Origin: Ottowia thiooxydans DSM 14619
GTDB lineage: Bacteria; Pseudomonadota; Gammaproteobacteria; Burkholderiales; Burkholderiaceae_C
Direction of reading: 5' to 3'
DNA length: 64,000 nucleotides
Assembly (NCBI RefSeq): GCF_000422885.1
Contig: NZ_KE383945.1
Coordinates: 1-64,000, forward strand
Positions 11,903 to 27,816 of this stretch are shown here, in pieces; within the stretch, counting starts at the first letter, position 1, and each line of letters opens with the position of its first letter. A program made the position numbers and the translations under genes. The notes under the pieces are model-generated. The model worked only from the letters and a program-made list of their open reading frames with translations. It had not been told where the DNA came from and ran no database searches.

Positions 11903-11905
11903 GCC

Positions 11906-12865
11906 ATGACCGCGCCCACCACCAATACCGCACTGGCGGCAAGTGCCACGCACCGCAAGGTGTTCATCGCCATGGCTTTGGTATTCGCATTGGCCCCGCT
12001 GGCCGGCGTATATCCAGTTTTCATGATGAAAGTGATGTGTTTCGCGCTGTTTGCGTGCTCCTTCAATCTGCTGCTTGGATTTGGCGGGTTGCTCTCGTTC
12101 GGCCACGCCATGTTCCTCGGCAGTGCGGGATACGCGGCAGCACACGCCGCCAAGGTTTGGGGCTTCACACCCGAGTTGGCTATTCTTTTCGCAACGCTGT
12201 GCGCGGCCACCCTAGGCTGGCTTGCGGGCATGCTCGCCATTCGCCGACAAGGCATTTACTTTGCCATGATCACGCTGGCGCTGGCCCAGATGGTTTTCTT
12301 CTTCAGCCTCCAGGCACCATTTACTGGCGGTGAAGACGGCATCCAGGCCGTCCCGCGCGGACGGCTATTCGGCCTGATCGATCTATCGCAACCGATGGCG
12401 ATGTACGCGTTCGTGTTCACGATCTTCATCGGCGGCTTTCTGCTGATCTACCGTATCGTCCATTCGCCTTTCGGCCAGGTACTCCAAGCCATTCGAGAAA
12501 ACGAACCACGCGCTATTTCGCTGGGCTATGACGCAGACAAATTCAAGCTCCGGGCCTTTGTGCTGTCTGCAGCCCTCTCAGGAATGGCTGGTGGCACCAA
12601 GTCTCTCGTATTTCAACTTGCTTCGCTGACGGACGTGCATTGGAGCATGTCAGGCGAGGTCATTTTGATGACCCTGCTGGGCGGCATGGGGACCATCTTT
12701 GGTCCGGTCGTGGGCGCCGCGGTGATCATCACCATGCAAAACTATCTGGCCGAACTGGGCTCCTGGGTTTTGGTGATTCAGGGGGCCATCTTCGTAGTTT
12801 GCGTCTTGCTGTTCAGGCGCGGCATTGTGGGCGAAGTCGGGGCGTGGTTTAAGAAATCGCTCTGA
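11906..12865 (+). CDS. livM: ABC transporter permease, LivM type
   Basis: A 319-residue permease with about nine membrane segments. LivM features are FNLLLGFGGLLSFGHAMFLG, the ENEPRAISLGYDADKFKL loop and the LLGGMGTIFGPVVGAAVII stretch. It begins three bases after LivH, so translation is probably coupled, and it is the last gene of the operon. No strong hairpin follows before 12968. Confidence 0.94.
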   Translation: MTAPTTNTALAASATHRKVFIAMALVFALAPLAGVYPVFMMKVMCFALFACSFNLLLGFGGLLSFGHAMFLGSAGYAAAHAAKVWGFTPELAILFATLCAATLGWLAGMLAIRRQGIYFAMITLALAQMVFFFSLQAPFTGGEDGIQAVPRGRLFGLIDLSQPMAMYAFVFTIFIGGFLLIYRIVHSPFGQVLQAIRENEPRAISLGYDADKFKLRAFVLSAALSGMAGGTKSLVFQLASLTDVHWSMSGEVILMTLLGGMGTIFGPVVGAAVIITMQNYLAELGSWVLVIQGAIFVVCVLLFRRGIVGEVGAWFKKSL

Positions 12866-13381: not shown

Positions 13382-13960
13382 ACCCACAACCTACGCGCCC
13401 GCATTTCCGAATGCATCGTTGGAACCCAAGATCCGTTGCACGCTACCAATCTCCATCATGTGGCAAGAATTGCCGTGAAACACACAGCGATTGTGCGGTA
13501 CCTAGAACTCCCCCTGGCGAAACGGCCTCTCTCCAAACAACCACTGCCCGACAGGAAGCATACATGCGGTTCTTTCCAGCCGCCGTTGGCCACCCGCTCC
13601 CGCTTCCATTCCCCGCATCCCAAGCTCAGCTTGCGACCACCCTGCATGCTCAGCTGACCACGGTCGTGGGTAACGGGGCCAGTACGCAGAACTTGCAGGA
13701 TAACGTCCATTAGTTGGCTATACCGGTCAATGCAGCACATCGATCTGGGGCATCACACTGCCTCTGAAGAGGACGGCACCATTCTCGCAACCGGAGCTTG
13801 AGCACCAGTTCGCGCTGCACGTGCGGCAAGGCACGATCGATCCGCACTCCACGCATGGCAGCTCTTTCGTGCAGCTAGCAGCCTACAGCGTCGACGCAAG
13901 GGCGTCATGGAACCTTGGAGGTGACCGAGGAGGCCTTTCAACGCCTTTGAGAGCCTATTT
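13382..13960. other. intergenic region without supported gene
   Basis: About 580 bases separate the PIN gene from the nitronate monooxygenase gene. Open frames on both strands up to about 100 codons exist but lack recognisable domains or good start signals. No antitoxin is visible. The stretch may include decayed coding DNA. Confidence 0.4.
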
Positions 13961-14986
13961 TCAAGACCGGACTCTCCCCCCCAGGGCTTGCAAAATCTCA
14001 CAGGCTTCTTCCGCCATCTTTGGCACAAACTCCGCTACATGCACGATGCTGTCGATTGCGCTGGAAACTTGGCCAGCTGCGATCAGGCCGTCTTCGACAT
14101 CGCCCTCGCTCTGCGCACGTATCAAAGCCTTGTCCTTCCATTCGTTCAGCGCTTCGGCAGACATTTCACCGGCGTCTATGAGTTCCCGAAGCCGCTCCAC
14201 CCCTTGGTTTCTTAAGCCACGGCCTGGCCCGTAGACAGAAGGGAAGAGCGTGTCGTCACCCTCGCGTGCGTCCACGATCTTTTGTCGATATACAGGGTGC
14301 CATTCGTTCTCGTATGTGGCGATGAAGCGAGTGCCCATAGCCACACCATCAGCGCCCATCGCCAGCGCAGCAGCGAGTGTTCGGCCGTCGTGCGCGCCAC
14401 CGGAGAGCAGAACCGGCACGCGTACCTTAGCAGTAACATTGGGAATCAGCACAAAGGTGTGAACCGGCGAAGCGTGTGTGTGCCCGCCCATCTCGTAGCC
14501 GGATGCGATCACCACGTCTACTCCGGCAGCTTCCGCCTTGAGCGCCTGACGGGTGGATCCAACCTTGTGCATGTGAACAATCCCTGAGTCCTTGATGCGG
14601 TCACGGAACATGCCAGGAAAGCCCGCACTGGTGGTCAACACACGCAACTGCTTGGCGATGGCCGGGTCCGAGTCACGCGCATCAAGAACGGCCTTCACAT
14701 AGGCGGCACTCACAGGCATCATCTCGCCAGATTCGGTAGTTCCTACCGGTACATTGACCGCAAAAACCGCTGACGTGAGCTTCATCACCTCATCGATCTG
14801 CGCACGCATGTCGCGCGCACCCACTTCCGGTGTTGCGGTCATGCCGGGAATGCTCACAGTGCCCAGGCCACCTGCAGACGATACAGCAGCTGCAAGACGA
14901 GAGGTACGAAAAGGTCCCATCCCCTCTTGCACGATAGGAAAGCGGATACCCACGAGTTCCGTGAACCGTGTCGTGATGGTTTTCAT
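13961..14986 (-). CDS. nitronate monooxygenase / 2-nitropropane dioxygenase-like flavoprotein
   Basis: A 341-residue FMN-binding TIM-barrel protein. The N terminus FTELVGIRFPIVQEGMGPFR and AAAVSSAGGLGTVSIPGM, then VIASGYEMGGHTHASPV with the conserved His region, and LLSGGAHDGRTLAAALAMGADGVAMGTRF (phosphate-binding; quoted by pattern) define the NMO/2-nitropropane dioxygenase family. Family members oxidise nitronates, but related flavoproteins reduce enoyl or enone substrates. It is the last gene on the minus strand of the cluster, 21 bases after the thiolase-like gene. Given its neighbours a role on a CoA-linked intermediate is possible, though unproved. Confidence 0.87.
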   Translation of the reverse strand: MKTITTRFTELVGIRFPIVQEGMGPFRTSRLAAAVSSAGGLGTVSIPGMTATPEVGARDMRAQIDEVMKLTSAVFAVNVPVGTTESGEMMPVSAAYVKAVLDARDSDPAIAKQLRVLTTSAGFPGMFRDRIKDSGIVHMHKVGSTRQALKAEAAGVDVVIASGYEMGGHTHASPVHTFVLIPNVTAKVRVPVLLSGGAHDGRTLAAALAMGADGVAMGTRFIATYENEWHPVYRQKIVDAREGDDTLFPSVYGPGRGLRNQGVERLRELIDAGEMSAEALNEWKDKALIRAQSEGDVEDGLIAAGQVSSAIDSIVHVAEFVPKMAEEACEILQALGGRVRS

Positions 14987-15007
14987 AGGAAATCTTTCAG
15001 TGCTGGA

Positions 15008-16168
15008 TCAGCTTGTAGCGGCTTGATCGGAGAGAAGAACCATGGCCGATCCGTCGCACAGTGCTCCCGAAGTCACCACGCAACAGTCGTGGCGCGGCAC
15101 CTGCCGGTTGCCACCACGCCCCTGCATCTGCAGCACTGCCTCGGCTACTGTATTCATGCCATGAAGATAGCCCTCAGACAACAATCCGCCATGTGTGTTG
15201 ACTGGCAGGCGCCCATCGATCGCCGTGGCCCCGGAGGCGATGAACGCGCCCGCCTCGCCGCGCTCGCAAAAGCCCATGCCCTCAAGTCCCATGAGCACCA
15301 CGCTAGTGAAGCAGTCATAGATCTCAGCGAATTGCACGTCATTCGCAGAAATACCGGCACGACGGTAGAGCTCCTCGCTCAACAGGCTGGTGAAGTTGCG
15401 CGTGTAGTCGTCATAGAGCATCTGGTCGCCGATGTCGAGGCCGGGCCGGGCGCCCGCACGGTAAGCAGCGGCGGCGACGACGGCAGGTGGATGGCGTAGA
15501 TCGCGCGCACGTTCCAGCGAAGTCACTAAGATCGCGCACGCGCCATCTACCTCGGCGGTGCAGTCGGCCGCACGAAAAGGATCAGCGATCCACGGCAACT
15601 TGTAATAGCTCTCCAGATCTAGCGGCTTGCGCTGGACCGCGCGTTCATTGCGTTCGGCAAACCAGCGCTGCGCAACCGCCACGTTTGCCAGTGCTTCTGG
15701 CCCCTGCCCAGTCTCGTGTAAATAGCGACGCGCCCACATGGCGATGTACATCAGGTAAGAGTCATAGCCGATGGGATAGCGGTACTGCGACGCACCGCCC
15801 GGCATCTGGCCGCTACCCACACGCACACCAGAACGGCCGTTCAGCGCGCGAAACACAATGACGGATTCAGCCAGCCCATTTTCTATGGCCATCGCGGCTT
15901 GTCCGACCACATGCGACGGGCTTTGACCGCCTTGCTGAAAGTCCAGCACCCAGCGCAGACCAGGCAGGGCCAACGCGGTGGCCAACGCGTTACAGGTGAC
16001 AGAGTCATTGAGCACCATGAAGGAGCCGACGCCATCCACCTCGCGCGCTGGCATTCCCGCGTCAGCCAACGCGGCCGATGCGGCCTCACAGGCCAGATCA
16101 AGGACGGTGCGTCCGGAATTGCGCGTGAACGCCGTGTAACCGACTCCTGCGATGGCTGCTTTTCCCAC
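15008..16168 (-). CDS. thiolase-superfamily protein, SCPx/lipid-transfer (Ltp2-like), probable aldolase
   Basis: A 386-residue thiolase-fold protein. The GTG at 16168 follows AAGGAG at seven bases, so the longer frame upstream is not used. It aligns by pattern with SCP-x type thiolases (VGKAAIAGVGYTAF at the N terminus) but the segment that should hold the nucleophilic Cys reads DFQQGGQSPSH (76-86), with no Cys. The HDCF-type motif is YDCF (284-287), and the GHP-type motif is GYLHG (333-337), so Tyr replaces catalytic positions. Such changes are known in the steroid side-chain aldolase Ltp2, which works with a DUF35 protein; a DUF35 gene lies in this cluster at 25877-26314. Retro-aldol cleavage is inferred. 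Confidence 0.85.
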   Translation of the reverse strand: MGKAAIAGVGYTAFTRNSGRTVLDLACEAASAALADAGMPAREVDGVGSFMVLNDSVTCNALATALALPGLRWVLDFQQGGQSPSHVVGQAAMAIENGLAESVIVFRALNGRSGVRVGSGQMPGGASQYRYPIGYDSYLMYIAMWARRYLHETGQGPEALANVAVAQRWFAERNERAVQRKPLDLESYYKLPWIADPFRAADCTAEVDGACAILVTSLERARDLRHPPAVVAAAAYRAGARPGLDIGDQMLYDDYTRNFTSLLSEELYRRAGISANDVQFAEIYDCFTSVVLMGLEGMGFCERGEAGAFIASGATAIDGRLPVNTHGGLLSEGYLHGMNTVAEAVLQMQGRGGNRQVPRHDCCVVTSGALCDGSAMVLLSDQAATS

Positions 16169-16261
16169 TGATATCTCCTTCAAACGTACCTTATGGCGTT
16201 TTGTGATTAAAATATTAACGTAATATTTAATTTTTGACAATGGCAGTCGGGGGCAAGCGGG
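16169..16261. promoter_or_regulatory. divergent promoter region with 19-bp palindrome
   Basis: This gap separates the minus-strand thiolase-like gene from the plus-strand nitroreductase gene. At 16210-16228 a perfect dyad, AAATATTAACGTAATATTT, has 8-base arms and a 3-base centre, in an AT-rich patch unlike the surrounding DNA. Position and symmetry fit an operator for a dimeric regulator such as the TetR protein encoded 750 bases downstream. TTGACA at about 16234 could be a -35 element reading right. Confidence 0.6.
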
Positions 16262-16957
16262 ATGATCGAATCGGATATGCAGCGTTGTGTCGACCGAGTG
16301 CTGCTGGAACGCAGGTCGATTCGGGCATTTCTTTCCGATCCGGTTGCACGGGAAGACATCGAGCAGATCCTGCGCTGCGCCGCCCGCGCGCCCTCTGGCA
16401 CCAATACGCAGCCTTGGATGGTGCACGTCCTGCGGGGCGACTCCAAGGAGCGGCTGTCGCGAGAAATCCTGCGGATCCACGATTCGCCGGAACTGCGGGA
16501 GCAGCACTCAGAGGAGTACCCGTACTACCCTGACCGTTGGATCTCACCGTTCATCGATCGTCGCCGCAAGGTCGGTTGGAGCTTGTACTCTTTGCTGGGT
16601 CTGACCCGCGAAAACAAGCCAGGCATGCATGCACAGCTCGGGAGAAACTTCACTTTTTTCGATGCACCGGTGGCGCTCATGTTCACCATCGACCGTGTGA
16701 TGTCACATGGATCATGGCTAGACTACGGCATGTTCCTGCAGAACATCATGATTGCGGCGCAGGCTCGCGGCCTCGGCACCTGCGCGCAAGCGGCGTTCAG
16801 GCCATACCACCGACTGATCGCCGCTCACCTCAAACTTCCTGCCCACGAAACGCTCGTCTGCGGTATGGCTCTGGGACATGCCGATCCGGCCGCCATCGAA
16901 AATACCCTGGTGACTGAAAGAGATGAACTCGAAGCTTTCGTTCGGTTCAACGACTGA
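16262..16957 (+). CDS. nitroreductase family flavoprotein
   Basis: A 231-residue FMN nitroreductase-fold protein. It has the N-terminal RRSIRAF-type motif (LERRSIRAFLSDP), the FMN-binding ARAPSGTNTQPW segment (about residues 40-51), and the C-terminal GLGTCAQAAF and VCGMALGHAD stretches. These enzymes reduce nitro groups, quinones or enones with NAD(P)H. It is transcribed divergently from the thiolase-like gene and directly upstream of the TetR regulator, and may belong to the same regulon. The substrate is unknown. Confidence 0.88.
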   Translation: MIESDMQRCVDRVLLERRSIRAFLSDPVAREDIEQILRCAARAPSGTNTQPWMVHVLRGDSKERLSREILRIHDSPELREQHSEEYPYYPDRWISPFIDRRRKVGWSLYSLLGLTRENKPGMHAQLGRNFTFFDAPVALMFTIDRVMSHGSWLDYGMFLQNIMIAAQARGLGTCAQAAFRPYHRLIAAHLKLPAHETLVCGMALGHADPAAIENTLVTERDELEAFVRFND

Positions 16958-17012
16958 CATAATCCAATACGCATTCGCTCACCATCGCACCCCCTAATCG
17001 AGACTAGCCCCC

Positions 17013-17756
17013 ATGGTGAAAGCTGCCACCAAACAGCCCCGCAGAAAGCCGGGACGCCCCCTTGCCACCGCCGACGTTGACACCCGCAAGGCGCTGCTCA
17101 ACGCGGCGCACGACCTTCTCCTCGAAAGCAAAGGGCTACCAGTGCCCATCAGCGCGATCTGCGAGAAAGCGCGCGTTAACCCCGCGATGGTCAACTACTA
17201 CTTCGGTGGTAAACGTGACCTCACGGTTTCACTTTTCGAGCAGTTGTGTGAATCGTGGAATCCCGATCTGGAAAGTCTGCTTTTGCTGGACGTCCCTCCA
17301 AGCAAGAAGTTGGAGATCCACATCCGGCAGATGATCCGCAACTACCAGAACACCCCATATGCCAGCAGGCTGATGACGGAAGTCATCATGACTACCAAAC
17401 CTGCAGTCGCCAAGCGGCTCGGGAATAACTTCGTGAGGCCACTGATCTCGTTTTACGAACGGCTGATTGAGCAAGGCGTGGCAGCCGGCGAGTTCCGGCC
17501 GGTTGAACCAATGTTCCTGTTCTTCTCAGTGGTAGGCCAATGCGAGTACATGTTCGCCTCGTTGCCGCTGCTGTCGTCCGCGCTTGGTATCACCAAGCTC
17601 GACGAAGAGTTCCAGGAGTCTTTCATCAAGCATACGACGCAACTCGTGTTCTACGGCGTGGCCAGCGGTAACAACGCAAGCTCAGAAAGCCCTGCGAAGC
17701 CGGCGCGCAAGGCAACGGCTAAGACAACAAAGGCCGCAGCCAAGATTCAAGAATAG
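17013..17756 (+). CDS. TetR family transcriptional regulator
   Basis: A 247-residue TetR-type repressor. After a basic N-terminal tail (TKQPRRKPGRPLATADVDTR), residues about 23-70 form the helix-turn-helix: ALLNAAHDLLLESKG, then ISAICEKARVNPAMVNYYFGGK, the recognition helix. The ligand domain follows, and the last 25 residues are an Ala/Lys-rich tail (KATAKTTKAAAK), unusual in this family. It faces the ACAD gene tail to tail. It probably controls the surrounding CoA-catabolic cluster; the AT-rich dyad at 16210-16228 is a candidate site. The inducer may be an acyl-CoA, by analogy with other TetR catabolic regulators. Confidence 0.9.
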   Translation: MVKAATKQPRRKPGRPLATADVDTRKALLNAAHDLLLESKGLPVPISAICEKARVNPAMVNYYFGGKRDLTVSLFEQLCESWNPDLESLLLLDVPPSKKLEIHIRQMIRNYQNTPYASRLMTEVIMTTKPAVAKRLGNNFVRPLISFYERLIEQGVAAGEFRPVEPMFLFFSVVGQCEYMFASLPLLSSALGITKLDEEFQESFIKHTTQLVFYGVASGNNASSESPAKPARKATAKTTKAAAKIQE

Positions 17757-17842
17757 GTGTCTGTGTAGCCGAAGATACCCAAGAAGCGCGCACATCGAGA
17801 GTAACGGTTGTACCGAGAAGCTCCTCCCAGACAGTAGCACCG

Positions 17843-18994
17843 TTACCGGCGCGAGCCGAAGCCCTTCATTTTTGCAATCACCTGCAACATGGTCTCGTCG
17901 CTACCGCCCCCAATCGACAGGAGACGCAGGTCGCGGTAATAGCGGCTGACAGGGTTGTCCCACATAAATCCCATACCCCCCCAGTACTGAAGGCAAGAGT
18001 CGGTCACGACTCGCGCCAGGCGCCCTGCCTTGAGTTTGGCCATCGTGGCCAGCAACGTGACGTCTTCGCCCGCGACATAGGCATCCGTCGCCCGGTAGAC
18101 CAAGGAGCGTAACGCCTCCACGTCAACCTGGAGTTCAGCGAGGCGAAACTGCACCGCCTGGTTGCCAAGCACCGAGGAGCCGAAGATCATTCGCTCCCGA
18201 CAATAATCCGCCGTAGTGTCGATACAGCGCTCCATGGCACGCAGCGTGGTGGCCGCCACATACAGACGCTCGTCCTGAAACTGCACCATCTGGTTGCGAA
18301 AACCCTCACCCTCTTCGCCGACCATAAAGCTCGCGGGCACGCGCACGCCATCGAACACGATCTCGGAGGTTTCTGACGAGCGCATTCCCAGCTTGTCCAG
18401 AGGCTTGGAAACCGCAATGCCTCGCTGCTTGGCGGGCACGATGAACATGCTCTTGTTTCGGTGCGATGGCTCGTCGGAGGTATTGGCCAGCACACAGAAG
18501 AAGTCTGCCTGCAATGCATTCGTGATCCACATTTTGGTGCCAGTGACGACGTACTCACCGCCATCCCGTACGGCCTTGCACTTCAGGCCGGCCACATCGG
18601 ACCCCGCTTGCGGCTCACTTACGGCCACCGCGGCCACGTAATCCCCAGCGATCACCGGTGCGAGGAACTCGCGGCGCAACTCGTCGCTGCCGAACCGCGC
18701 GAGGGCCGGCGTGCCCATGCAGGTCTGTACACCAAAAGCCATAGGCAACGCGCCGATGCTGCAATGTCCGAGCTCCTCGGCTACAAGAACTTCCCAGCTG
18801 AAGTCCAACCCCAGGCCACCGTATTCCACAGGCTTGGAGACACCTGTAAGTCCAAGTTCCGCCATGCGCCGGAACACTTCATGCGCAGGGAATGCTCCGC
18901 GGCGCTCCCACTCTTGCGCGTTCGGGTCCACCTCTTCGGCGATGAAGCGCCGAATGACGGATCTAAGCGCGACTTGTTCGTGGGAGTTTTGCAT
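17843..18994 (-). CDS. acyl-CoA dehydrogenase (citronellyl-CoA/AtuD-like group)
   Basis: A 383-residue FAD flavoenzyme that would introduce a 2,3-double bond into an acyl-CoA. Family segments are AVAVSEPQAGSDVAGL (about 122-138), KMWITNA (154-160), and LQYWGGMGFMWDNPVSRYYRD (near 335-355). The usual catalytic Glu position near residue 363 is within IGGGS, so it is not Glu. Glu242 in QDERLYVA lies where isovaleryl-CoA and long-chain dehydrogenases place theirs. That variant is typical of enzymes for branched substrates. It belongs to the minus-strand CoA cluster, next to a binding-protein gene. Confidence 0.9.
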   Translation of the reverse strand: MQNSHEQVALRSVIRRFIAEEVDPNAQEWERRGAFPAHEVFRRMAELGLTGVSKPVEYGGLGLDFSWEVLVAEELGHCSIGALPMAFGVQTCMGTPALARFGSDELRREFLAPVIAGDYVAAVAVSEPQAGSDVAGLKCKAVRDGGEYVVTGTKMWITNALQADFFCVLANTSDEPSHRNKSMFIVPAKQRGIAVSKPLDKLGMRSSETSEIVFDGVRVPASFMVGEEGEGFRNQMVQFQDERLYVAATTLRAMERCIDTTADYCRERMIFGSSVLGNQAVQFRLAELQVDVEALRSLVYRATDAYVAGEDVTLLATMAKLKAGRLARVVTDSCLQYWGGMGFMWDNPVSRYYRDLRLLSIGGGSDETMLQVIAKMKGFGSRR

Positions 18995-19023
18995 GTCGTG
19001 ATCCGTGGCTTGGACGTTGGTGA

Positions 19024-20196
19024 TCAGTAATCCAGATACTCGGTGATCGCCGCCCAGCGACCCGCCTTGATCTCACTCACCCGCGAGCGCTCATTGCCCA
19101 GGTGGGTCTTGGCGGTGAATTTGTATTCGGGACTACCAAAGACGTCGCGCGGCACCACCGTCTTTTCCAGTTGTGCATTCAGCGTGTCTACGGTGATGTT
19201 GTTGCCAAGTTTGGCAATGGCGTCAAGCGTGATCTGCATCATCGAATAGCCATATACGGAGAAAACACCCGGATCTTCCTTGAAGCGGGCTTGGTAACGC
19301 TTCACCCAGTCACGCACCGCTGGCGATGCATCGTCCGGATACGGCTGACCGACCTGATGCACCGCGAGGTAGCCATCCATGCCCGGACCACCGATCTTGT
19401 GGATCAAATCGGTATAGGAGCCGGCCACGCCTATGAACTTGGGCGCCCAGCCAATCTTCTTGGCTTCGTTGAGTGTTCCAATCGTCTCGCGGATGATGGT
19501 GCCCATCACCACGGTATCGCAACCAGAGGTGCGCATGCGCGCCACCTGGGAGGAGAAGTCGGTCGAGCCGCGCTTGTAACTGGTCTTCTCCTTGAAGGCT
19601 TGGCCCAGCTCCTTCAGTCCAGCTTCAGCGCCGCGCAAAATCTCCAGACCGTAGTCGCCGTCTTCATAGATGATGCAGAAGCTCTTGGAGCCACGATCAC
19701 GCGTCATGTACTTCACCGCCGTGGTCGCTTGCAACAGGTATGGCGGCAGGAAGGCGTATTTCAGCTTGGTGGTGGGCTCAAACATTTCTGCCGCGCCCGA
19801 TAGCGGGAACAGGTTTGGAACATTGCGCTCCATAAGCATCGGCAGCGAGGGCACCACCACCACCGTGCCCATAGTCGAGACCATCGCGAAGATGTTGTCG
19901 CGTTCAATCATTTTCTGCGTGGCAATGATGCCCTTCTTGGGGTCATAGCCGCTGTCTTCGATCACGAGCTTGATCTTGCGGCCGTTGATCCCGCCCGCGG
20001 CGTTCGCCTCCTCCACGCGCATGATGAGGCCATCGCGGGACTGCTTGCTGAAGCCGGATGTAGGGCCCGAGAGATCCTGGACAGAACCCAGGATGATCTC
20101 GTCCTTGGTGATACCGCGCACCTGGGCTGAAGCGGTTGTCGCGACGGCGAGGCCGATCGCAACGGCCGCCAGACCGAGTCTGAATTTCGTGTTCAC
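19024..20196 (-). CDS. periplasmic substrate-binding protein of Liv-type ABC transporter (second set)
   Basis: A 390-residue binding protein of the Leu/Ile/Val fold. It has a signal peptide of about 24 residues ending in TASAQ, then ITKDEIILGSVQDLSGPTSG at the start of the mature domain. The start is a GTG at 20196 preceded by AAGGAG, giving an intact signal peptide; longer upstream reading is not supported. It lies between the ACAD and acyl-CoA ligase genes and presumably delivers the substrate of the cluster to the LivHM permeases at 24-26 kb. The conserved ligand-loop sequence does not reveal the ligand. Confidence 0.93.
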   Translation of the reverse strand: MNTKFRLGLAAVAIGLAVATTASAQVRGITKDEIILGSVQDLSGPTSGFSKQSRDGLIMRVEEANAAGGINGRKIKLVIEDSGYDPKKGIIATQKMIERDNIFAMVSTMGTVVVVPSLPMLMERNVPNLFPLSGAAEMFEPTTKLKYAFLPPYLLQATTAVKYMTRDRGSKSFCIIYEDGDYGLEILRGAEAGLKELGQAFKEKTSYKRGSTDFSSQVARMRTSGCDTVVMGTIIRETIGTLNEAKKIGWAPKFIGVAGSYTDLIHKIGGPGMDGYLAVHQVGQPYPDDASPAVRDWVKRYQARFKEDPGVFSVYGYSMMQITLDAIAKLGNNITVDTLNAQLEKTVVPRDVFGSPEYKFTAKTHLGNERSRVSEIKAGRWAAITEYLDY

Positions 20197-20252
20197 TGCT
20201 GTCTCCTTATGGTTGATATGGCATTGACCAATACACACTCTCTTGCCAAGCC

Positions 20253-20314
20253 AGGAGGCTTTCGAACTTGGAAATCGCCAACTAAAAATCAGCGCTTCAA
20301 GTCCGACAGCTTCC
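20253..20314. repeat. dispersed inverted-repeat element, copy A (diverged)
   Basis: Imperfect arms AGGAGGCTTTCGAACTTGGA (20253-20272) and CTTCAAGTCCGACAGCTTCC (20295-20314) match the ends of the perfect element at 31770-31862, around a short centre. Just downstream, at 20379-20418, a second strong dyad occurs: GCAAACCATAGCGATAGC and its complement around CGTA. The gap from 20197 to 20476 contains no gene. Confidence 0.75.
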
Positions 20315-20476
20315 CAGTACTGCGCTTCACCAAAAGGCTGACGAAATAGAGTCGATGGATTTGTTCGCCAGGCAAGGCGCAAACCATAGCGATAGCCGTA
20401 GCTATCGCTATGGTTTGCAACGCAGCATGGCAGGCAAAAACGCGATTTCATTTCAGCTTTTTGGTGCAACGCAGTA

Positions 20477-22336
20477 CTAGTACATCGACTCGATCAGGTC
20501 GGCGTACTTGGCGTTCACAAACTTTCGCTTGAGCTTCATGGTGGGCGTGAGCTCCTCGTCTTCGGCGGTCAGTTGCGTCTCGATCAACCGGAACGCCTTG
20601 ACCTGCTCTACTCGGGCGAACTTCGCATTCACCGCTTGCATCTCGTTTTCGACCAGGTTCTGGATGGCCTGCGCGCGGCACAAGCTCACGTAGTCTGAGA
20701 ATGGGATGTCGTGGTCCTGCGCGTACTTGACGACGTTGTCCAGGTCAATCATGATGAGCGCCGTGAGATAAGCGCGGCGATCGCCTATGACAACTGCATC
20801 GGTGATGTAAGGCGAGAACTTCAACTCGTTCTCTATCTCCGAGGGCGTGATGTTCTTTCCGCCAGCCGTGATGATGATGTCCTTCATCCGGTCGACGATC
20901 TTGAAGTAGCCATCCTCGTCCACGCGACCTACGTCGCCTGTGTGTAACCACCCTTCTGCATCCAGCGTCTCGGCGGTCTTTTCCGGCAAGTTCAAGTAAC
21001 CCATGAACACGTTCGGACCGCGAATCAGCAACTCGGATGTCTGAGGGTCTAGCTTCACTTCGTTCATTGGGGAAGCGGGGCCAATCCATCCTGGCTTTAT
21101 CTTCCCCACCGGGGTGGCGGTGCCGCCGCCAGCAGCCTCGGTTTGCCCCCAAATTTCTCGCACAGGAATACCCAGTGCGAGGTACCAACGGATCAGATCC
21201 GGCGAAATGGGCGCAGCGCCAGTGATGATGAAGCGGCAGCGGTGAATGCCCAACAGGCGGCGTGTGTTGTTCAGCACCAGGGTCCGCGCGAGCCAGTAGC
21301 GTACTGCGAGGCCCACCGGCAAGGGTTTGCCGTCTTGCAAATAGGGCGCGGCGTCATACCCCACCTTCAGGGCCCGGGCATAGGCCCACTTTTCCAGTGG
21401 AGTGGCCTCCGACAACGCAATAGTGGAAGCTGAATAGAACTTCTCCCAAATCCGCGGCACAGCAAGGAATACTGTGGGCGCAATCTCGCGCACATTCTCG
21501 GGAATGGTTTGCGGGTTCTCCACGAAATTGAGGCACGTGCCCGAGTAAAGCGCCAAGTAGGCGCCCATAATCCGCTCGGCCGCATGACACAAGGGAAGGA
21601 AGCACATACGTTGATCGCGTTCGTCTTGATCCACAACACGACGCAGGCCGCGGATCGAAGCCACGACATTGCCGTGCGAGAGCATCGCACCCTTGGGCTT
21701 TCCAGTGGTGCCGGAGGTGTAGATGAGGATGGCCAGATCTGATACTTGCCGGCAAGACAGACCCTGCTCCCACCGCGCGTCCGCACCTGCTTCTGTCATG
21801 CGTGCGCGCCCCAGAGCCCGCAGGCCGTCCAGGCTGATGACACTCGGATCATCGAATTTTTGCAGGCCTTCCATATCGAAGACGACCACGCGTCTTAGCA
21901 GCGGCAATTGTTCGCGCACAGCAAGCGCTTTGTCCAACTGTTCCTCGTCCTCGACGAAGAGAATGGTGGAAGCCGAATCGGCCATCAGGTAATGGGTTTG
22001 CTCAGCTGAGTCGGTAGGATAGATACCACTGGAAACACCACCCACGAACAGAGCGCCCAAATCTGCATACAACCATTCGCGCACGGTGTTCGACAGGATA
22101 GACACGCACTCGCCGCGTTGAAACCCAACGGCGAGCAAACCCTCGCCCAACTCACGGCTGATATTGGCCAGTTCGCCATTGGTGATGCTGATCCAGATGC
22201 CGAGCTCTTTCTGCCGCAACGCCACTTGTTGGCTGCGCTTCATGAAGGTACGCCAGAACACCTCGGCCACCGTGTCGCCCGGGATGTAATGCGGCAGGCC
22301 GGCGGCGTCCGACTCCGTCTGAGGTTGTGACTGCAT
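20477..22336 (-). CDS. long-chain acyl-CoA synthetase (AMP-forming ligase)
   Basis: A 619-residue acyl-adenylate-forming ligase that would activate a carboxylic acid to its CoA thioester with ATP. Family motifs are the P-loop ILIYTSGTTGKPKGAMLSHG (about residues 192-211), the IWGQTEAAGG adenylate-binding motif (about 399-408), GWLHTGDVGRVDEDGYFKI, and the hinge DRMKDIIITAGGKNI. The ATG at 22336 lies four bases after the LivF stop and supports coupling; longer frames are rejected. Its place inside a Liv-transporter operon points to activation of an imported acid. Which acid is not known. Confidence 0.93.
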   Translation of the reverse strand: MQSQPQTESDAAGLPHYIPGDTVAEVFWRTFMKRSQQVALRQKELGIWISITNGELANISRELGEGLLAVGFQRGECVSILSNTVREWLYADLGALFVGGVSSGIYPTDSAEQTHYLMADSASTILFVEDEEQLDKALAVREQLPLLRRVVVFDMEGLQKFDDPSVISLDGLRALGRARMTEAGADARWEQGLSCRQVSDLAILIYTSGTTGKPKGAMLSHGNVVASIRGLRRVVDQDERDQRMCFLPLCHAAERIMGAYLALYSGTCLNFVENPQTIPENVREIAPTVFLAVPRIWEKFYSASTIALSEATPLEKWAYARALKVGYDAAPYLQDGKPLPVGLAVRYWLARTLVLNNTRRLLGIHRCRFIITGAAPISPDLIRWYLALGIPVREIWGQTEAAGGGTATPVGKIKPGWIGPASPMNEVKLDPQTSELLIRGPNVFMGYLNLPEKTAETLDAEGWLHTGDVGRVDEDGYFKIVDRMKDIIITAGGKNITPSEIENELKFSPYITDAVVIGDRRAYLTALIMIDLDNVVKYAQDHDIPFSDYVSLCRAQAIQNLVENEMQAVNAKFARVEQVKAFRLIETQLTAEDEELTPTMKLKRKFVNAKYADLIESMY

Positions 22337-22340
22337 CACG

Positions 22341-23114
22341 TTATCTCCAGTTCTTCTTGCGTTTCCACCGGTGCTGACCGCGAACACCGGCTTCTTTGAT
22401 GCCCAGGTAGAACTCCTTGATGTCACTCTGCTCACGCAACACGGCGCACTCGCCTTCCATCACAATGCGGCCAACCTCGAGCACGAACCCATGGTCTGCG
22501 CAATCCAACGCGACGCGCGCGTTCTGCTCCACCAAGAGGATGCTCGTGCCCCTCTCTCGGTTGATGCGCTTGATGATGGTGAAGATGTCTTTGATCAGCT
22601 TGGGCGACAGCCCCAGGCTGGGTTCATCCAGCAACATCAGCGTGGGTTCGGTCATCAGACCGCGGGCGATCGCCAGCATCTGCTGCTGTCCGCCCGAGAG
22701 CAGCCCTGCCCGGGCTTCAGCTTTTTCCTTGAGGATGGGAAAGTAGGTATAAACCGTCTCCATGTCACGCGCGACCGCGTCGCGATCGGAACGGGTGAAC
22801 GCACCCATCACGAGGTTCTCGCGCACGCTAAGGAAAGGAAACACCTCTCGGCCTTCCGGCACATGCACCACGCCGCGGCGCACGATCTTTGCAGGGTTGA
22901 GGGAGGCAATCGAGGCGCCATCGAAAATGATGCTTCCCTTATCCGGGTCGATGATGCCGGAGATGGTCTTCAAGATGGTCGACTTTCCTGCACCGTTAGC
23001 GCCCAACACCGTAGATATCTTGCCGCGAGCAATGCTCATGCTGACGCCGCGGATGGCCTTCACGGGCCCGTAGCTGCTTTCAACGTTGCTGAGGGTAAGA
23101 AGGGCGTCGCTCAT
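22341..23114 (-). CDS. livF: ABC transporter ATP-binding protein, LivF type (second set)
   Basis: A 257-residue LivF-type ATPase. Walker A is normal (GANGAGKSTIL, about 38-48, Lys present), with signature LLSGGQQQMLAIARGLM, Walker B LMLLDEPSLGLSP, and VEQNARVAL. It overlaps the LivG stop by an ATGA junction, and the acyl-CoA ligase begins four bases past its own stop. This confirms one operon. The C terminus carries a basic extension (RWKRKKNWR). Confidence 0.93.
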   Translation of the reverse strand: MSDALLTLSNVESSYGPVKAIRGVSMSIARGKISTVLGANGAGKSTILKTISGIIDPDKGSIIFDGASIASLNPAKIVRRGVVHVPEGREVFPFLSVRENLVMGAFTRSDRDAVARDMETVYTYFPILKEKAEARAGLLSGGQQQMLAIARGLMTEPTLMLLDEPSLGLSPKLIKDIFTIIKRINRERGTSILLVEQNARVALDCADHGFVLEVGRIVMEGECAVLREQSDIKEFYLGIKEAGVRGQHRWKRKKNWR

Positions 23115-23884
23115 TCTTCGGGTCCCCCAAGGTAGGCTTCGATCACACTGGCGTTGGACTGCACCTCTGCGGCGGTACCCGTTGCAAGCACGCGGCCATA
23201 GTTCAACGCAAGGACCCGATCAGACACGCGACTCACAAGCGACATGTCGTGCTCCACCATCACCACAGTGATGCCCAGATCGTCGCGTATGTCTTCAATC
23301 CAGTACGCCATGTCCTCGGTTTCCTCCGGATTGAGTCCAGAAGAGGGCTCGTCTAACAGCAGCAAGTGCGGCTTCATTGCCAATGCTCTGCCCAGCTCCA
23401 CCACTTTGCGCACACCGTACGGCAAGCCATCTACCAACATGTCGCGGTAGTGCTGCAAGTCCAGGAAATCGATGACTTGCTCCACCTGAGTGCGAAACTC
23501 CAACTCGCGACGACGTGCGGTCCGTGTGAACAGCGCGTCTTGCCACATGCGGCTGCGCCGTTGCGTGTGGCAGCCGATGAGCAGGTTCTGCAACACGGTC
23601 GCATGTTCGAACAGCTCAATATTTTGGAACGTGCGGGCCACACCAAGCCCGGCAATCCGATGCGCCGGCAGACGCGATATTAACTCGCCGTTGAGCCTGA
23701 TCTCCCCAGCTGTAGCGCGGTACAAGCCGCTGATGAGGTTGAAGGTAGTGGTCTTGCCAGCGCCATTGGGGCCAATAAGCGAGAACACTTCTCCTTGACG
23801 CACGGTGAAGTCCACACCGTCCACCGCCTTTAAACCACCGAATTGCACGGTGAGGCCTTTGGCCTCCAGCAGGGGCTGACTCAT
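23111..23884 (-). CDS. livG: ABC transporter ATP-binding protein, LivG type (second set)
   Basis: A 257-residue LivG-type ATPase with Walker [14 protein letters not shown], the LivG insert, a DGLPYGVRKVVELGRALAMK signature region, Walker B LLLLDEPSSGLNPEET, and VEHDMSLV. The ATG at 23884 overlaps the LivM stop as ATGA, which fixes the start; an upstream in-frame ATG at 23980 lies inside livM. Its stop likewise overlaps the LivF start. Confidence 0.93.
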   Translation of the reverse strand: MSQPLLEAKGLTVQFGGLKAVDGVDFTVRQGEVFSLIGPNGAGKTTTFNLISGLYRATAGEIRLNGELISRLPAHRIAGLGVARTFQNIELFEHATVLQNLLIGCHTQRRSRMWQDALFTRTARRRELEFRTQVEQVIDFLDLQHYRDMLVDGLPYGVRKVVELGRALAMKPHLLLLDEPSSGLNPEETEDMAYWIEDIRDDLGITVVMVEHDMSLVSRVSDRVLALNYGRVLATGTAAEVQSNASVIEAYLGGPEE

Positions 23885-24957
23885 CGCATCCGCTCCGATT
23901 TCACATAGGTCTTCTGGCGACGGTGGCTGCCCTTGCGGTAGTAGGGGAACTGCTCCAGGTAGCTGCGCACCTTGATCCAACGTCCGTTGATCCCCTTGGG
24001 CTCGAAGATGATGAATGCGATGAGGATGACGCCGAAGATGATAGGTTGCAATCCGACCTGATTCGAAATGGCTGCTGGCAGGTAATCCTTGAACATCAGA
24101 ATCATCTGCTGCACCACGATCCAGAAGGCCGCACCGAAATAGACACCCTTGATCGAACCAAGCCCCCCAATCACCATCATCATCAGCAGCTCAATGGAAA
24201 ACGCGAAGGTGAACTGCTCGGGTGAAATGAAGCGCAGCTTGTGCGCATACAAAGCGCCAGCGATGCCGGCCAGCAGTGCGCTGATGGAAAAAGCCGCTGT
24301 TTTGTAATAGGCCAGGTTGATGCCCATGCTTTGCGCGGAAATCTCGGAATCACGGATGGCGATGAAAGCACGTCCTGTCGGGCTGCGTAGTAGATTCAAG
24401 ATGCACAGCGTCGCAGCCACCGCGATCGCCAACGCGAGGAAATAGAAGCGTGCATCCGTGTTGACGGGAAAGCCAAACAGGCTGATGGCACCCACTGTCA
24501 TACCAGAGTTCCCACCCGTGATGCCTTCCGCACGGGTCAACACTTCCTCAACCACCACCGCGCAAGCGAACGTCGCGATCATGAGGTAAATACCCTTGGT
24601 GCGTAGCGCCGGAAGCCCCACTGCGATCCCGACCAGGGCCGCCGATAGCGCGGCCACCGTGATCGAGACCGGGAACGGAACGCCCTTCTTCGATAGCCAG
24701 GCCTCCACGTAGGCACCGATCGCAATGAAAGCGGCGTTGCCAATCGACACCAGGCCTGTGAAACCTGTCAGCAGCATGAGGCCAAGCCCGGCGATCGCGT
24801 AGATCAATATGAAGATCAAGGGCGTCAGCAGATATCCCGGCAGAAAAATCGGCGCCGCCAGCGCTGCCACGGCAAGCGCACCGTACCAGAAGCGCATGCC
24901 GCCGTGCCGCAACAGCACAACATCCTGCTCGTAGTCAGTCTTGAATATGAATCGCAT
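23881..24957 (-). CDS. livM: ABC transporter permease, LivM type (second set)
   Basis: A 358-residue permease with about nine membrane segments. LivM patterns are GLMLLTGFTGLVSIGNAAFIAIGAY (quoted by pattern), RDSEISAQSMGINLAYYK, and MVIGGLGSIKGVYFGAAFW. The C terminus is a charged cytosolic tail of about 40 residues (KGSHRRQKTYVKSERMR). It lies 27 bases after the LivH stop, in the same minus-strand operon. Confidence 0.93.
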   Translation of the reverse strand: MRFIFKTDYEQDVVLLRHGGMRFWYGALAVAALAAPIFLPGYLLTPLIFILIYAIAGLGLMLLTGFTGLVSIGNAAFIAIGAYVEAWLSKKGVPFPVSITVAALSAALVGIAVGLPALRTKGIYLMIATFACAVVVEEVLTRAEGITGGNSGMTVGAISLFGFPVNTDARFYFLALAIAVAATLCILNLLRSPTGRAFIAIRDSEISAQSMGINLAYYKTAAFSISALLAGIAGALYAHKLRFISPEQFTFAFSIELLMMMVIGGLGSIKGVYFGAAFWIVVQQMILMFKDYLPAAISNQVGLQPIIFGVILIAFIIFEPKGINGRWIKVRSYLEQFPYYRKGSHRRQKTYVKSERMR

Positions 24958-24984
24958 GTTCGTCCTGGATGGGTGCTGCGTCGT

Positions 24985-25866
24985 TCAGGCCCGCTTGGCC
25001 ATTTTTTCGCCAAACAAGCCTCTTGGCCGCACGACGAGCATCACCAGCACCGCAACATATGGCGCCACATCTTTGAAGCCTTCGGGCAGGTAATAGCCAG
25101 CCATCGCTTCGATGACACCGATGATCAGCCCGCCCACGATGGCGCCCGGAATGCTGCCGAATCCACCGATGATGGCCGCCGGAAATGCCTTCATACCGAT
25201 GAAGCCCATGTTGGCGTGCACGAAAGTGATCGGCGCCAGCAAGATGCCCCCTATCGCGGCAATGGCGGCAGACAAACCCCATACCGCGGTGTTCAGGCCG
25301 CGTACGGGGATGCCCATGTAATAGGCGGCCAACTGGTTCTGCGACACGGCCTGCATCGCGATGCCGTATTTGGAGTAGCGAAAGAACAAGTACAGGGCCA
25401 GGCACAGCACAGCGGTCGCGCCGATGATCACCAACTGTTCTACGCTGATCACCAATTGCCCGCCAGCCACTCGAACAAGCTCACCCTTATACGGAACTGG
25501 CAACGCATGCGTGTCAGTGCCCCAGCCAGGGATCATCGTGATGGCTCCGCGCGCAATGTAGCCAAAGCCAATGGTCACCATGACTACCGTGAACGCCATT
25601 TGCCCCAGGAGGGGGCGAATCAGCGCCCATTCCAGGATGACTCCAACGGTCACCATAGCCAGCATTGTCACGATGATGGAAGCCCAGAACGGCAGACCGA
25701 GCACCGTCATACAGGCCAAACCAATAAAGGCACCGAGCATCATCAACTCTCCTTGGGCGAAGTTGATGGTCTCAGTCGCTTTGTAGATCAGCACGAAGCC
25801 GAGCGCGATAAGCCCATAGATGCAGCCTTGCGCAAGGCCGCTCAGTAGGATCTGGGCAAGCTGCAT
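24985..25866 (-). CDS. livH: ABC transporter permease, LivH type (second set)
   Basis: A 293-residue permease. LivH patterns include GLAQGCIYGLIALGFVLIYK, NFAQGELMMLGAFIGLAC and PAAIIGGFGSIPGAIVGGLI. It follows the DUF35 gene by ten bases on the minus strand and precedes LivM. The set lacks its own adjacent binding-protein gene, which instead lies at 19024-20196 after the ligase. Confidence 0.93.
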   Translation of the reverse strand: MQLAQILLSGLAQGCIYGLIALGFVLIYKATETINFAQGELMMLGAFIGLACMTVLGLPFWASIIVTMLAMVTVGVILEWALIRPLLGQMAFTVVMVTIGFGYIARGAITMIPGWGTDTHALPVPYKGELVRVAGGQLVISVEQLVIIGATAVLCLALYLFFRYSKYGIAMQAVSQNQLAAYYMGIPVRGLNTAVWGLSAAIAAIGGILLAPITFVHANMGFIGMKAFPAAIIGGFGSIPGAIVGGLIIGVIEAMAGYYLPEGFKDVAPYVAVLVMLVVRPRGLFGEKMAKRA

Positions 25867-25876
25867 GAGGCGCCGC

Positions 25877-26314
25877 TCAGACTCGATTCACCGGCGCAAC
25901 GGTGAATCGAAGCTCTGTCCAGTCACCGTGATCGAGGTAACCTGCACGCACCCCTTGACCGATCACAAGCTCTGCTCCAGGCGTGTCCACTCGCGCAGCG
26001 ATGCGCCCACCCCCTTCAAGATCAATGGTGGCAACGATGTATGGCAGGTCTGCCTTGAAGGCTGGGTGAAAAGCATGGTGCACCACCACCCAGCTGTACA
26101 CGGTGCCCCGACCCGTGGGCTCCACAATCCTCGACTCCCGCCCGGCGCAGAACGGGCAGGTTGGCATCGGTGGGAAGCGGCGCTTGCCGCAATCCAAGCA
26201 TTCCTGCACCTTGAACTCGTGGGCACGCAAACCGTCCCAGAAGAACGCACTGTCCTGGTCCGGAGAGGGGATAGGGCGCGGAGGCAAATCGGAGAGTGAG
26301 AGGACGTTAGGCAT
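25877..26314 (-). CDS. Zn-ribbon/OB-fold protein, DUF35 (CoA-binding partner type)
   Basis: A 145-residue DUF35 protein. The N-terminal rubredoxin-like zinc ribbon has CLDCGKRRFPPMPTCPFC (CX2C...CX2C, about residues 38-55). An OB fold follows, with GTVYSWVVVHHAF and VDTPGAELVIGQGV. DUF35 proteins act as partners of thiolase-superfamily enzymes and acyl-CoA binding modules, for instance ChsH2 with the aldolase Ltp2 in steroid side-chain degradation. The ATG at 26314 is preferred because longer frames have no supporting features. It probably pairs with the protein encoded at 15008-16168. Confidence 0.9.
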   Translation of the reverse strand: MPNVLSLSDLPPRPIPSPDQDSAFFWDGLRAHEFKVQECLDCGKRRFPPMPTCPFCAGRESRIVEPTGRGTVYSWVVVHHAFHPAFKADLPYIVATIDLEGGGRIAARVDTPGAELVIGQGVRAGYLDHGDWTELRFTVAPVNRV

Positions 26315-26339
26315 GGCGCTTGCGCTTGTGGTGAGTGGC

Positions 26340-27173
26340 TCAGCGGCCAGTGAACTTGGGTGGGCGCTTGGTCGCGAATGCTTCCAGGCCCTCGTGCGCA
26401 TCGCTGCTGGTAAGGCAATAACGCGCGGTCGCCTCGCGCTCTAACCGGAATGCAGCCTGTACACCTGTACCCTCATTCAAGCCCGCGTTAAGCACTTGCT
26501 TGGCGTTCGCGACCGCCAATGGAGACTTCTTTGCGACATCCCGGGCGAATTCAAGTACCGCGTCCAGCAAACCCCCATCTGGAACGATTCGGTTGACCAA
26601 CCCGAACTCCATCGCTTCCGCTGGCTCAAGCAAACGACCGCTGAAGATCAACTCGCGAGCACGCATTGGCCCAATGATCCGAGGGAGCATCGTCAGGACG
26701 CCACCACCGCCCATCTGTCCGAAGTTCAGGTGCGCATCGCCGATGCGCCCAGACTGCGCACAGATCACGAGGTCGCAAGAGAGGATCAGCTCTATACCGC
26801 CAGCCACCGCGATGCCGTTGACGAGGGCTACATACGGTTTCGGGTACGTCGCGATCCTCTGAAATGTCTCATGGATGTCAGCCAGGAAGTGGGGGAAGTC
26901 TGTGCTTTCGCGCTGGAGCTTCTGGTACTTCTTCATATCACCACCAGCACTGAATGCACGGCCAGAGCCTGTGATGCCGACAACGCGCACATCCTCATCC
27001 ACCGCCAACTGGTCAAACACACGACGCATTTCACGCGCCATTGCCCAATCCATGGGGTTCATCTTGTCCCCGCGGTTGAACGTAACGATCGCCAGACTGC
27101 CGGCGCCTTCCCCCAAAGAGTGCTTTTCAACCAGCAGAAGGGGCGCCTGCTCTTCGATCTGTACGGCGCTCAT
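26340..27173 (-). CDS. enoyl-CoA hydratase/isomerase family protein
   Basis: A 277-residue crotonase-fold protein that would hydrate an enoyl-CoA. The first oxyanion-hole region is ITGSGRAFSAGGDMKKY, and the second is ALVNGIAVAGGIELILSCD. The hydratase Glu positions near residues 121-123 and 143-145 cannot both be assigned: the second region reads GQMGGGGVLTMLPR, where classical hydratases carry Glu at the first or second position. It is the first gene of the minus-strand cluster, with an AT-rich patch upstream. Alternative functions of the fold (isomerase, hydrolase) remain possible. Confidence 0.88.
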   Translation of the reverse strand: MSAVQIEEQAPLLLVEKHSLGEGAGSLAIVTFNRGDKMNPMDWAMAREMRRVFDQLAVDEDVRVVGITGSGRAFSAGGDMKKYQKLQRESTDFPHFLADIHETFQRIATYPKPYVALVNGIAVAGGIELILSCDLVICAQSGRIGDAHLNFGQMGGGGVLTMLPRIIGPMRARELIFSGRLLEPAEAMEFGLVNRIVPDGGLLDAVLEFARDVAKKSPLAVANAKQVLNAGLNEGTGVQAAFRLEREATARYCLTSSDAHEGLEAFATKRPPKFTGR

Positions 27174-27816
27174 GGAGTCAAGCCTCCGGGAATGCCAGAA
27201 AGCACCCCTGATGCTGGCCTGAAGCCCAAGCTCGCCAAGGCAGATTTCTCTTTGAGTCGTGCGGTCACTTTGTCTCCAGTTCGAGTGAGGTCCGTCGTGC
27301 GTCACACATGGCTGGGATGAGCCAAGGCAAGAGCGATGAAAATTATTATATGTTCCTTTAATTAATTTTCAACCGGATAGGCCTTGCACTGGGGAAAACC
27401 CCGGTAGAGGTAACCCGGGGGCTGCTGAGGCGCGTGCCGCCGCCCGGGTTGGTGCTCTCAAATCGAGTCACTCACACAGACCCGCTAGAAGCTCTCGTCA
27501 TCGCGATGAGTCATAGTGCTAGGACAACAAAAGCAACACCCGCTGCAGCGCGTGAAAGAACGGACGATCACGTGACGACCTCTTACGCCCAAGGCTCTGA
27601 GCAGGTAGTGGCAAGGACGCAGCGCTGAAATACCCTGAGAAGACTTCTTCCCTTGGAGAAGGGCGATGTCGCGCATCCTTGCAAATTGGTTTGGATAGGC
27701 ATGGGCCCCCGCGGCATAGACAGCTTGCGAAACTACCCGCGTGCTCCTCGGTTCAAACTCCTAGAGGTGCTCGGATCCAGCCGTCTGGGTGCCTATGGTC
27801 CCGCGAACGCAAGGGC
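27174..27816. promoter_or_regulatory. gene-free region upstream of the CoA cluster, with AT-rich dyad
   Basis: No gene is supported in about 640 bases. The main feature is an AT-rich patch at 27336-27370: GAAAATTA at 27338-27345 and its complement TAATTTTC at 27363-27370, 17 bases apart. It resembles in composition the dyad at 16210-16228 and may be a promoter/operator of the minus-strand operon. The remainder shows nothing recognisable. Confidence 0.4.

Follow-up and report, generated by a model that had tools for sequence, protein, structure and literature searches.

Gene Content of the Locus

The gene cluster described here occupies positions 13961–27173 of a 64,000-nucleotide stretch of the Ottowia thiooxydans DSM 14619 genome (NZ_KE383945.1, positions 1–64,000), referred to below as the window. 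It encodes a thiolase-like protein that is a candidate aldolase (ALD), a DUF35 protein, an atypical crotonase (ECH), an acyl-CoA dehydrogenase, an acyl-CoA ligase, and a Liv-type importer with its binding protein. The cluster is a real acquired catabolic island, a variation on the thiolase-fold aldolase systems. Three findings are new: ALD belongs to a separate clade that combines the two sets of aldolase residues known so far, the crotonase is altered, and these two types of protein are linked.

Transcribed from the minus strand are, in this order, the genes of ECH, the DUF35 protein, LivH, LivM, LivG, LivF, the ligase, the binding protein, and the dehydrogenase (Table 1). The gene of ALD, followed by that of a nitronate monooxygenase-like protein (NMO), lies on the same strand beyond two plus-strand genes, those of a nitroreductase and a TetR regulator; the latter pair (16262–17756) separates the aldolase and dehydrogenase genes, and the cluster is thus not one operon. 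A preliminary description, made from the sequence, had presented the cluster as self-contained, and its gene list and coordinates stand: all the genes are present as open frames, and ten of the proteins fall into the named families in profile scans (Pfam, NCBIfam), while LivH, LivM, and LivG were assigned, without a Pfam scan, from open frames and similarity to relatives.

Table 1. Features of the cluster and the evidence for their assignment; L009 and L046 are loci of relatives
Feature	Coordinates	Strand	Evidence
NMO, FMN-dependent nitronate monooxygenase / FabK-like enoyl reductase family	13961..14986	-	PF03060 1.6e-52
ALD, Ltp2-like thiolase-superfamily aldolase candidate	15008..16168	-	6ok1_A E 4.8e-77; GTG start, AGGAG upstream (start from sequence)
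Probable operator/promoter in the ALD–nitroreductase intergenic gap (divergent genes)	16194..16240	.	AT-rich near-palindrome TAAAATATTAACGTAATATTTAA at 16208–16230
Nitroreductase-family flavoprotein	16262..16957	+	PF00881 3.1e-35; PDB 3gr3 2.2e-63
TetR-family regulator	17013..17756	+	PF14514 1.3e-24
Acyl-CoA dehydrogenase	17843..18994	-	PF00441/02770/02771; best PDB 3r7k 8.1e-71
Liv-type periplasmic binding protein	19024..20202	-	PF13458 6e-69
Acyl-CoA ligase (AMP-forming)	20477..22336	-	PF00501 3.2e-64; NCBIfam FadD11 406.6 bits, under its cut-off 950
LivF ATPase	22341..23114	-	PF00005; UrtE/LivF models
LivG ATPase	23111..23884	-	Open frame; matches L046 (93%), L009 (50%)
LivM permease	23881..24957	-	Open frame; matches L046 (93%), L009 (42%)
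LivH permease	24985..25866	-	Open frame; matches L046 (98%), L009 (38%)
DUF35 protein with rubredoxin-like zinc ribbon and OB fold, probable partner of ALD	25877..26314	-	PF01796 3.9e-16, PF12172 1.3e-08
Atypical crotonase (ECH), E128/D146/H148	26340..27173	-	PF00378 3.9e-53

The Thiolase-Like Protein and Its Likely DUF35 Partner

The best solved relative of ALD is the Ltp2 chain of TcLtp2-ChsH2(DUF35) (PDB 6ok1), a steroid C3 side-chain aldolase, followed by 4u4e and by the Sal chain of CtSal-CtShy (PDB 9myr), a bile-acid C5 side-chain aldolase. Ltp2 and Sal lead also when the AlphaFold model of ALD (mean pLDDT 87.5, weakest about residues 111–130) is compared by Foldseek, with the two Ltp2 chains of 6ok1 on top (TM-score 0.91) and Sal next. 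In the alignment the position of the thiolase nucleophile is occupied by Gly in ALD, TcLtp2, and CtSal alike, in agreement with the loss of the nucleophilic Cys reported in the preliminary description, and ALD does not qualify as an SCP2-type thiolase. Gly in place of the thiolase Cys is described also for CtSal, where it is said to exclude thiolytic cleavage; catalysis is attributed to Tyr294 and Tyr344 in TcLtp2, and to Tyr302 and Cys304 in CtSal (PMC12329534).

Tyr294 and Tyr344 of TcLtp2 align with Tyr284, located within a YDCF motif, and Tyr334 of ALD, and the Y284/C286 pair of ALD matches the Sal-type Tyr302/Cys304 pair in its YDC motif, so that the catalytic residues of the two known kinds of aldolase are united in ALD. 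Y284, D285, C286, F287, and Y334 are invariant in the 32 sequences of alignment A1 and conserved in at least 95% of all 46 aldolase sequences from which these 32 were taken. At 42% identity, TcLtp2 is closer to ALD than are the protein presumed to be IpfD of the ibuprofen plasmid pIBU218 (35%) and CtSal (31%). In a FastTree phylogeny of 79 sequences, from which four short or cut loci (L016, L020, L051, and L069) were left out, ALD belongs to a separate clade of 47 members with a local support of 1.0, and TcLtp2 lies outside this clade. TcLtp2 thus shares with ALD the fold, both tyrosines, the absence of the thiolase Cys, and the gene of a DUF35 partner, but has YDHF in place of YDCF. CtSal, in turn, shares the YDC motif with its catalytic Cys and a DUF35 partner, but has Gln at the position of Tyr334. 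The residues of ALD suggest the mode of action of an Ltp2, yet it does not class as one.

The top PDB matches of the DUF35 protein are the DUF35 chains 6ok1_B (4.5e-19, ChsH2) and 9myr_B (4.7e-19, Shy), so that, among solved structures, both the thiolase-like and the DUF35 protein are closest to Ltp2-ChsH2(DUF35), a likeness already pointed out in the preliminary description. The frame of the DUF35 protein is open from 26401, while conservation begins only near the second Met. Shy is described as carrying a MaoC and a DUF35 domain; the profile scan of the window protein revealed no MaoC domain. An aldolase with a DUF35 protein is known from steroid degradation. For Comamonas, the removal of the propionyl side chain is reported, from disruption mutants, to involve an aldolase whose DUF35 domain is essential (PMC12502768).

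The Atypical Crotonase and Its Linkage to the Aldolase

According to the alignments with PDB sequences, Glu128 of the crotonase corresponds to the first catalytic Glu of the family, and His148 replaces the second. E128, D146, and H148 are invariant in the 26 sequences of alignment A2 (26 of 28 crotonases, that of the window included). The two glutamates expected of an enoyl-CoA hydratase 1 (Glu144 and Glu164 of rat ECH) are thus represented by E128 and H148, and the protein is either a hydratase of altered chemistry or not a hydratase. The nearest solved fold to its model is LiuC, with AUH ranking sixth, although the top Foldseek scores differ little; unlike these two, the window protein has His for the second catalytic Glu. 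LiuC and AUH are 3-methylglutaconyl-CoA hydratases, which hydrate a beta-methyl-branched enoyl-CoA to a tertiary 3-hydroxyacyl-CoA. Within its own genome the window protein is the sole crotonase with the Glu/Asp/His set among the best 30 of 60 matches.

The linkage of the two genes was counted in 72 loci (L009–L080) fetched by aldolase similarity. The count includes loci truncated at contig ends and two from a single plasmid (L077 and L080); L056, which has a YDHF copy besides, was entered under YDAF, the motif of its best-scoring aldolase, and L062 has an extra YDAF copy; taxonomic labels are those given for the metagenome-assembled genomes. By tblastn a Glu/Asp/His crotonase is present in 42 of the 51 loci whose aldolase has YDCF and the second Tyr, in contrast to none of the 13 YDHF loci and none of the eight with other motifs; as loci that share a lineage cannot count as independent cases, 42/51 is not to be read as a probability. 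The window cluster, with such a crotonase and a Liv importer, differs in this from the TcLtp2 system. Among the 51 loci a DUF35 gene is found in at least 44, a lower bound as the OB-fold gene of ipf was missed by tblastn, and Liv permeases are found in nine. In a grouping by clustering of 45 relatives' loci, the crotonase cluster is represented in 37 and the DUF35 cluster in 35. MaoC genes were detected in 5/51 YDCF, 0/13 YDHF, and 0/8 other loci with four queries; as MaoC partners are known from the Ltp2 systems of steroid degradation, this search was too insensitive to support the idea that Ltp2-type loci have MaoC hydratases in place of the crotonase. The Bacillus-group locus L040 contains the aldolase and DUF35 genes, and no crotonase was found in the fetched stretch. 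In three Nocardioides loci (L022, L024, and L025, near 15430) a distant Glu/Asp/His crotonase (27% identical) adjoins another thiolase-like gene.

Distribution and Origin of the Island

A near-identical cluster, with a 95% identical aldolase and the same gene order, was found only in L046, labelled as a metagenome-assembled genome of Comamonadaceae with 'diesel' in its title, whose stretch includes just the end of the crotonase gene. The other close relatives of the aldolase (54–76%) are mostly labelled actinobacterial; the remaining labels are Rhizobiales (L026), Elusimicrobia (L016), Acidobacteriota (L028), Chloroflexi (L051), Dormiibacterota (L039), and Alkalihalobacillus (L040). The conserved gene set that the preliminary description proposed to look for in other Burkholderiales did not emerge: the aldolase is matched in its own genome only, both at 1e-90 among 299 genomes of the family and at 1e-85 among 399 genomes of the order and 369 of the class. 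L046 is one further Comamonadaceae genome that has it.

In the window a block of approximately 17 kb (13388–30406), comprising the cluster and an ankyrin-repeat gene, is located between the genes of a PIN-domain and an RlmL-like protein. In all three genomes of the same genus that were searched, the PIN gene directly adjoins the RlmL-like gene and the block is absent at that site; the homologue of the LivM gene that flanks the island directly adjoins PIN in two of them and lies 1.8 kb away in the third. The PIN homologues of these genomes are only 47–57% identical to that of the window, and the flanking Liv and RlmL homologues 72–93%. The 13388–30406 block is an island, recently acquired by horizontal transfer.

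The ankyrin-repeat protein of 660 residues (27817–29799) is encoded at the island's edge in DNA of 46–50% G+C, compared to about 55–63% in the rest of the 5–36 kb segment, and its gene has no match in the stretches from the three genus mates. A second Liv operon (8065–12865), common to the genus mates, directly adjoins the island. The genome of O. thiooxydans DSM 14619, at 7.05 Mb, far exceeds those of the three genus mates (3.9–4.3 Mb) and gives 21 thiolase-like, 60 crotonase, and 16 DUF35 matches; its size and the number of such matches suggest a specialised degrader.

Proposed Pathway and Its Alternatives

The island probably serves to import an organic acid that lies beyond the reach of ordinary beta-oxidation and to degrade it in part via retro-aldol cleavage. 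The acid would be taken up by the binding protein and LivHMGF, converted to its CoA thioester by the ligase, and provided with an alpha,beta double bond by the acyl-CoA dehydrogenase; the crotonase would then add water to the enoyl-CoA, and ALD, in a putative complex with the DUF35 protein, would split the 3-hydroxyacyl-CoA so formed, releasing a ketone or aldehyde together with acetyl-CoA or propionyl-CoA. The base of this reaction would be Tyr284 and its acid Tyr334, by analogy with TcLtp2; alternatively, Cys286 may serve as the acid, as its counterpart does in Sal. NMO, with its likeness to flavin mononucleotide (FMN)-dependent reductases, and the nitroreductase may handle side intermediates. 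By its residues and fold the retro-aldol step is well supported, albeit unproven.

The substrate is probably an acid that bears a ring or a branch at the beta position, because the hydration step would then yield a tertiary alcohol, which dehydrogenases are unable to oxidise. Isovaleryl-CoA dehydrogenase (1ivh) ranks sixth among the PDB matches of the acyl-CoA dehydrogenase (1.9e-65), which weakly fits a beta-branched substrate; the Glu in the DERL stretch of the window enzyme presumably occupies the position of the base in isovaleryl-CoA and long-chain dehydrogenases. The ligase was discarded as a guide to the substrate, since it has no solved relative at E ≤ 1e-40 and remains under the NCBIfam cut-off.

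Several observations weigh against this pathway. The preliminary description held that the cluster lacks a 3-hydroxyacyl-CoA dehydrogenase and that a retro-aldol route explains the gap. The former was borne out, as neither such an enzyme nor a short-chain dehydrogenase/reductase (SDR) is present among the ten cluster proteins scanned; PF00725 has 10 matches in the genome, none of them on the window's contig, and neither PF00725 nor SDR was found among 30 other window frames scanned, a part of all its frames (on this contig SDRs were searched for within the window). The explanation stands as far as the kinship of ALD to the aldolases goes, in sequence, fold, and tyrosines, but SDRs are encoded in the fetched stretch of 28 of the 45 relatives' loci grouped by clustering and, by tblastn, in 38/51 YDCF+Tyr loci vs. 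1/13 YDHF loci and 3/8 with other motifs. These SDRs could oxidise a 3-hydroxyacyl-CoA, and the absence of a dehydrogenase is therefore a feature of this cluster and not of the module. ALD itself scores 349.6 bits against a cut-off of 469 for the lipid-transfer protein model PRK07855 of NCBIfam, and a search of open-licence literature revealed no assayed member of its clade. As for the crotonase, its best solved relatives by sequence are plain hydratases (1uiy of Thermus and 5zai), with LiuC ranking fourth and fifth, and hydration by it is not assured, since no activity is reported as detected for AcuH mutants of either Glu (PMC5651017). The first 45 loci encode 25 further crotonases, of which 13 share its residue set. 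On a Pseudosulfitobacter plasmid (L081, fetched by crotonase similarity and not included in the linkage count) a Glu/Asp/His crotonase adjoins a thiolase-family protein of a type other than this aldolase (10043–12050), in a stretch that also contains Liv importer, ligase, and SDR genes, so such crotonases are not confined to aldolase partners. Finally, the solved relatives of the binding protein, mostly Leu/Ile/Val binders, are distant (best 4.8e-18) and permit no inference as to the substrate.

An alternative is nearly ordinary beta-oxidation, for which genes at other sites of the genome would provide the dehydrogenase and the thiolase, while the thiolase-like protein would act as a carrier or condensing subunit. 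In its favour, besides the PF00725 proteins encoded on other contigs there are 20 other thiolase-like matches and the numerous crotonases and DUF35 proteins mentioned above, and many relatives have SDRs near the module. Nevertheless, this is unlikely, as the aldolase residues invariant over 32 sequences and the loss of the thiolase nucleophile would be hard to explain if ALD were not an aldolase. Somewhat less likely still, the cluster might be a divergent relative of the Ltp2/Sal systems that has its own importer and acts on the side chain of steroids or bile acids. Such a module would agree with TcLtp2 being the closest solved relative by both sequence and fold; moreover, 12 of the 13 loci with the Ltp2-type YDHF motif are labelled actinobacterial, and steroid degradation is common in Actinobacteria. 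ALD, however, lies outside the Ltp2 clade and is distant from CtSal, and no MaoC hydratase was found among the cluster proteins scanned, whereas such a hydratase is described for the steroid systems of Comamonas (PMC12502768). Seven of the 20 paralogues of ALD in the same genome, two of them as shortened frames, were compared with the steroid enzymes and are at most 38.5% identical to CtSal and 40.1% to TcLtp2. A steroid side-chain role was thus not adopted: with no close Sal or Ltp2 relative among these seven, and steroid-ring genes not searched for, a steroid substrate has nothing positive in its favour beyond the kinship to Ltp2.

The ibuprofen plasmid pIBU218 offers another comparison. There IpfD, a thiolase-like protein, is encoded in one cluster with the OB-fold protein IpfE, an acyl-CoA ligase, and a Liv-type binding protein, as in the window; an ipfD insertion mutant is reported not to grow on ibuprofen (PMC9195938). 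IpfD is taken here to be the 395-residue protein, on the basis of gene order, flanking IS6100 copies, and similarity. By analogy, the window enzymes might perform retro-aldol cleavage of a ring-hydroxylated arylalkanoyl-CoA, for which no hydratase is needed, and the crotonase, devoid of the second Glu, could carry out, e.g., an isomerisation. In contrast to pIBU218, no ring-hydroxylating dioxygenase was found among the cluster proteins; IpfD has YDAF and is distant from ALD, the binding protein is the only part of an importer annotated there, and the ipf stretch yielded no crotonase. Of the three alternatives we regard this one as the least probable.

Retro-aldol cleavage of an imported acid is thus retained for the window cluster, which has further precedents. 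Plasmid pB32-2 of Bosea sp. F3-2 carries within about 16 kb a YDCF aldolase 48% identical to ALD, DUF35, ligase, and Glu/Asp/His crotonase genes, and a complete Liv importer, with genes of a 3-hydroxyacyl-CoA dehydrogenase, an SDR, an acyltransferase (thiolase-named), and MaoC nearby. In a Blastococcus locus the core is followed in a row by LivG, ligase, LivH, LivM, binding protein, and LivF. Together with ipf these cases indicate that the combination of importer and aldolase, which had seemed undescribed in the preliminary description, is recurrent and not unique. In a literature search (open-licence papers; titles and the beginnings of abstracts) no description of the ALD clade, or of an importer-aldolase cluster besides ipf, was recognised.

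More tentatively, and with the odds rather against it, the YDCF/Tyr aldolase, the DUF35 protein, and the Glu/Asp/His crotonase may form a general non-steroid module of retro-aldol beta-oxidation, distributed by horizontal transfer in Actinobacteria and Proteobacteria (Acidobacteriota, Chloroflexi, and other labels occur in single loci). Such a module would combine with varying genes for activation and import and release acetyl-CoA or propionyl-CoA, along with a ketone, from beta-branched or alicyclic acids, the crotonase being a new Glu/His hydratase that makes tertiary alcohols. A route from cyclohexaneacetate to cyclohexanone reportedly exists in Arthrobacter, although it was not found in the literature search. 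Beta-branched and alicyclic acids, among them naphthenic, isoprenoid, and pharmaceutical ones, resist ordinary beta-oxidation, and their opening would become understandable if aldolase routes extend beyond the degradation of steroids and ibuprofen. The crotonase with its invariant Glu/Asp/His set and the linked aldolase constitute a testable enzyme pair, and their linkage a genomic marker for further clusters.

Regulation and Other Features of the Window

The gap of 93 bases between the divergent ALD and nitroreductase genes contains the near-palindrome at 16208–16230. The 47 bases 16194–16240 are identical in L046, compared to 82% identity over the whole alignment of 162 columns. The TetR regulator may bind at this near-palindrome and would then control the divergent promoter; TetR homologues (50–52% identical) adjoin the aldolase gene in L016 and L026 as well. 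No second copy was found in the window at up to three mismatches, which gives no support to a common TetR regulon including the crotonase gene. A shared operator upstream of the latter was considered and rejected, since the sequence there has merely an AT-rich similarity of 14 of 18 positions to the 16208–16230 region.

The best PDB match of NMO is the enoyl-ACP (acyl carrier protein) reductase 5gvj (1.8e-44), and its homologues are encoded within the fetched stretch of 13 of 45 relatives' loci; the nitroreductase has a homologue in L046 only among loci L009–L073, at the cut-offs used. A hairpin with 19-base arms, two mismatches being allowed, is located between the ligase and binding-protein genes (20378–20419), and is possibly an element of mRNA stability or attenuation. 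Outside the island, the window also carries a gene of a BenE-type benzoate transporter at 62328–63518.

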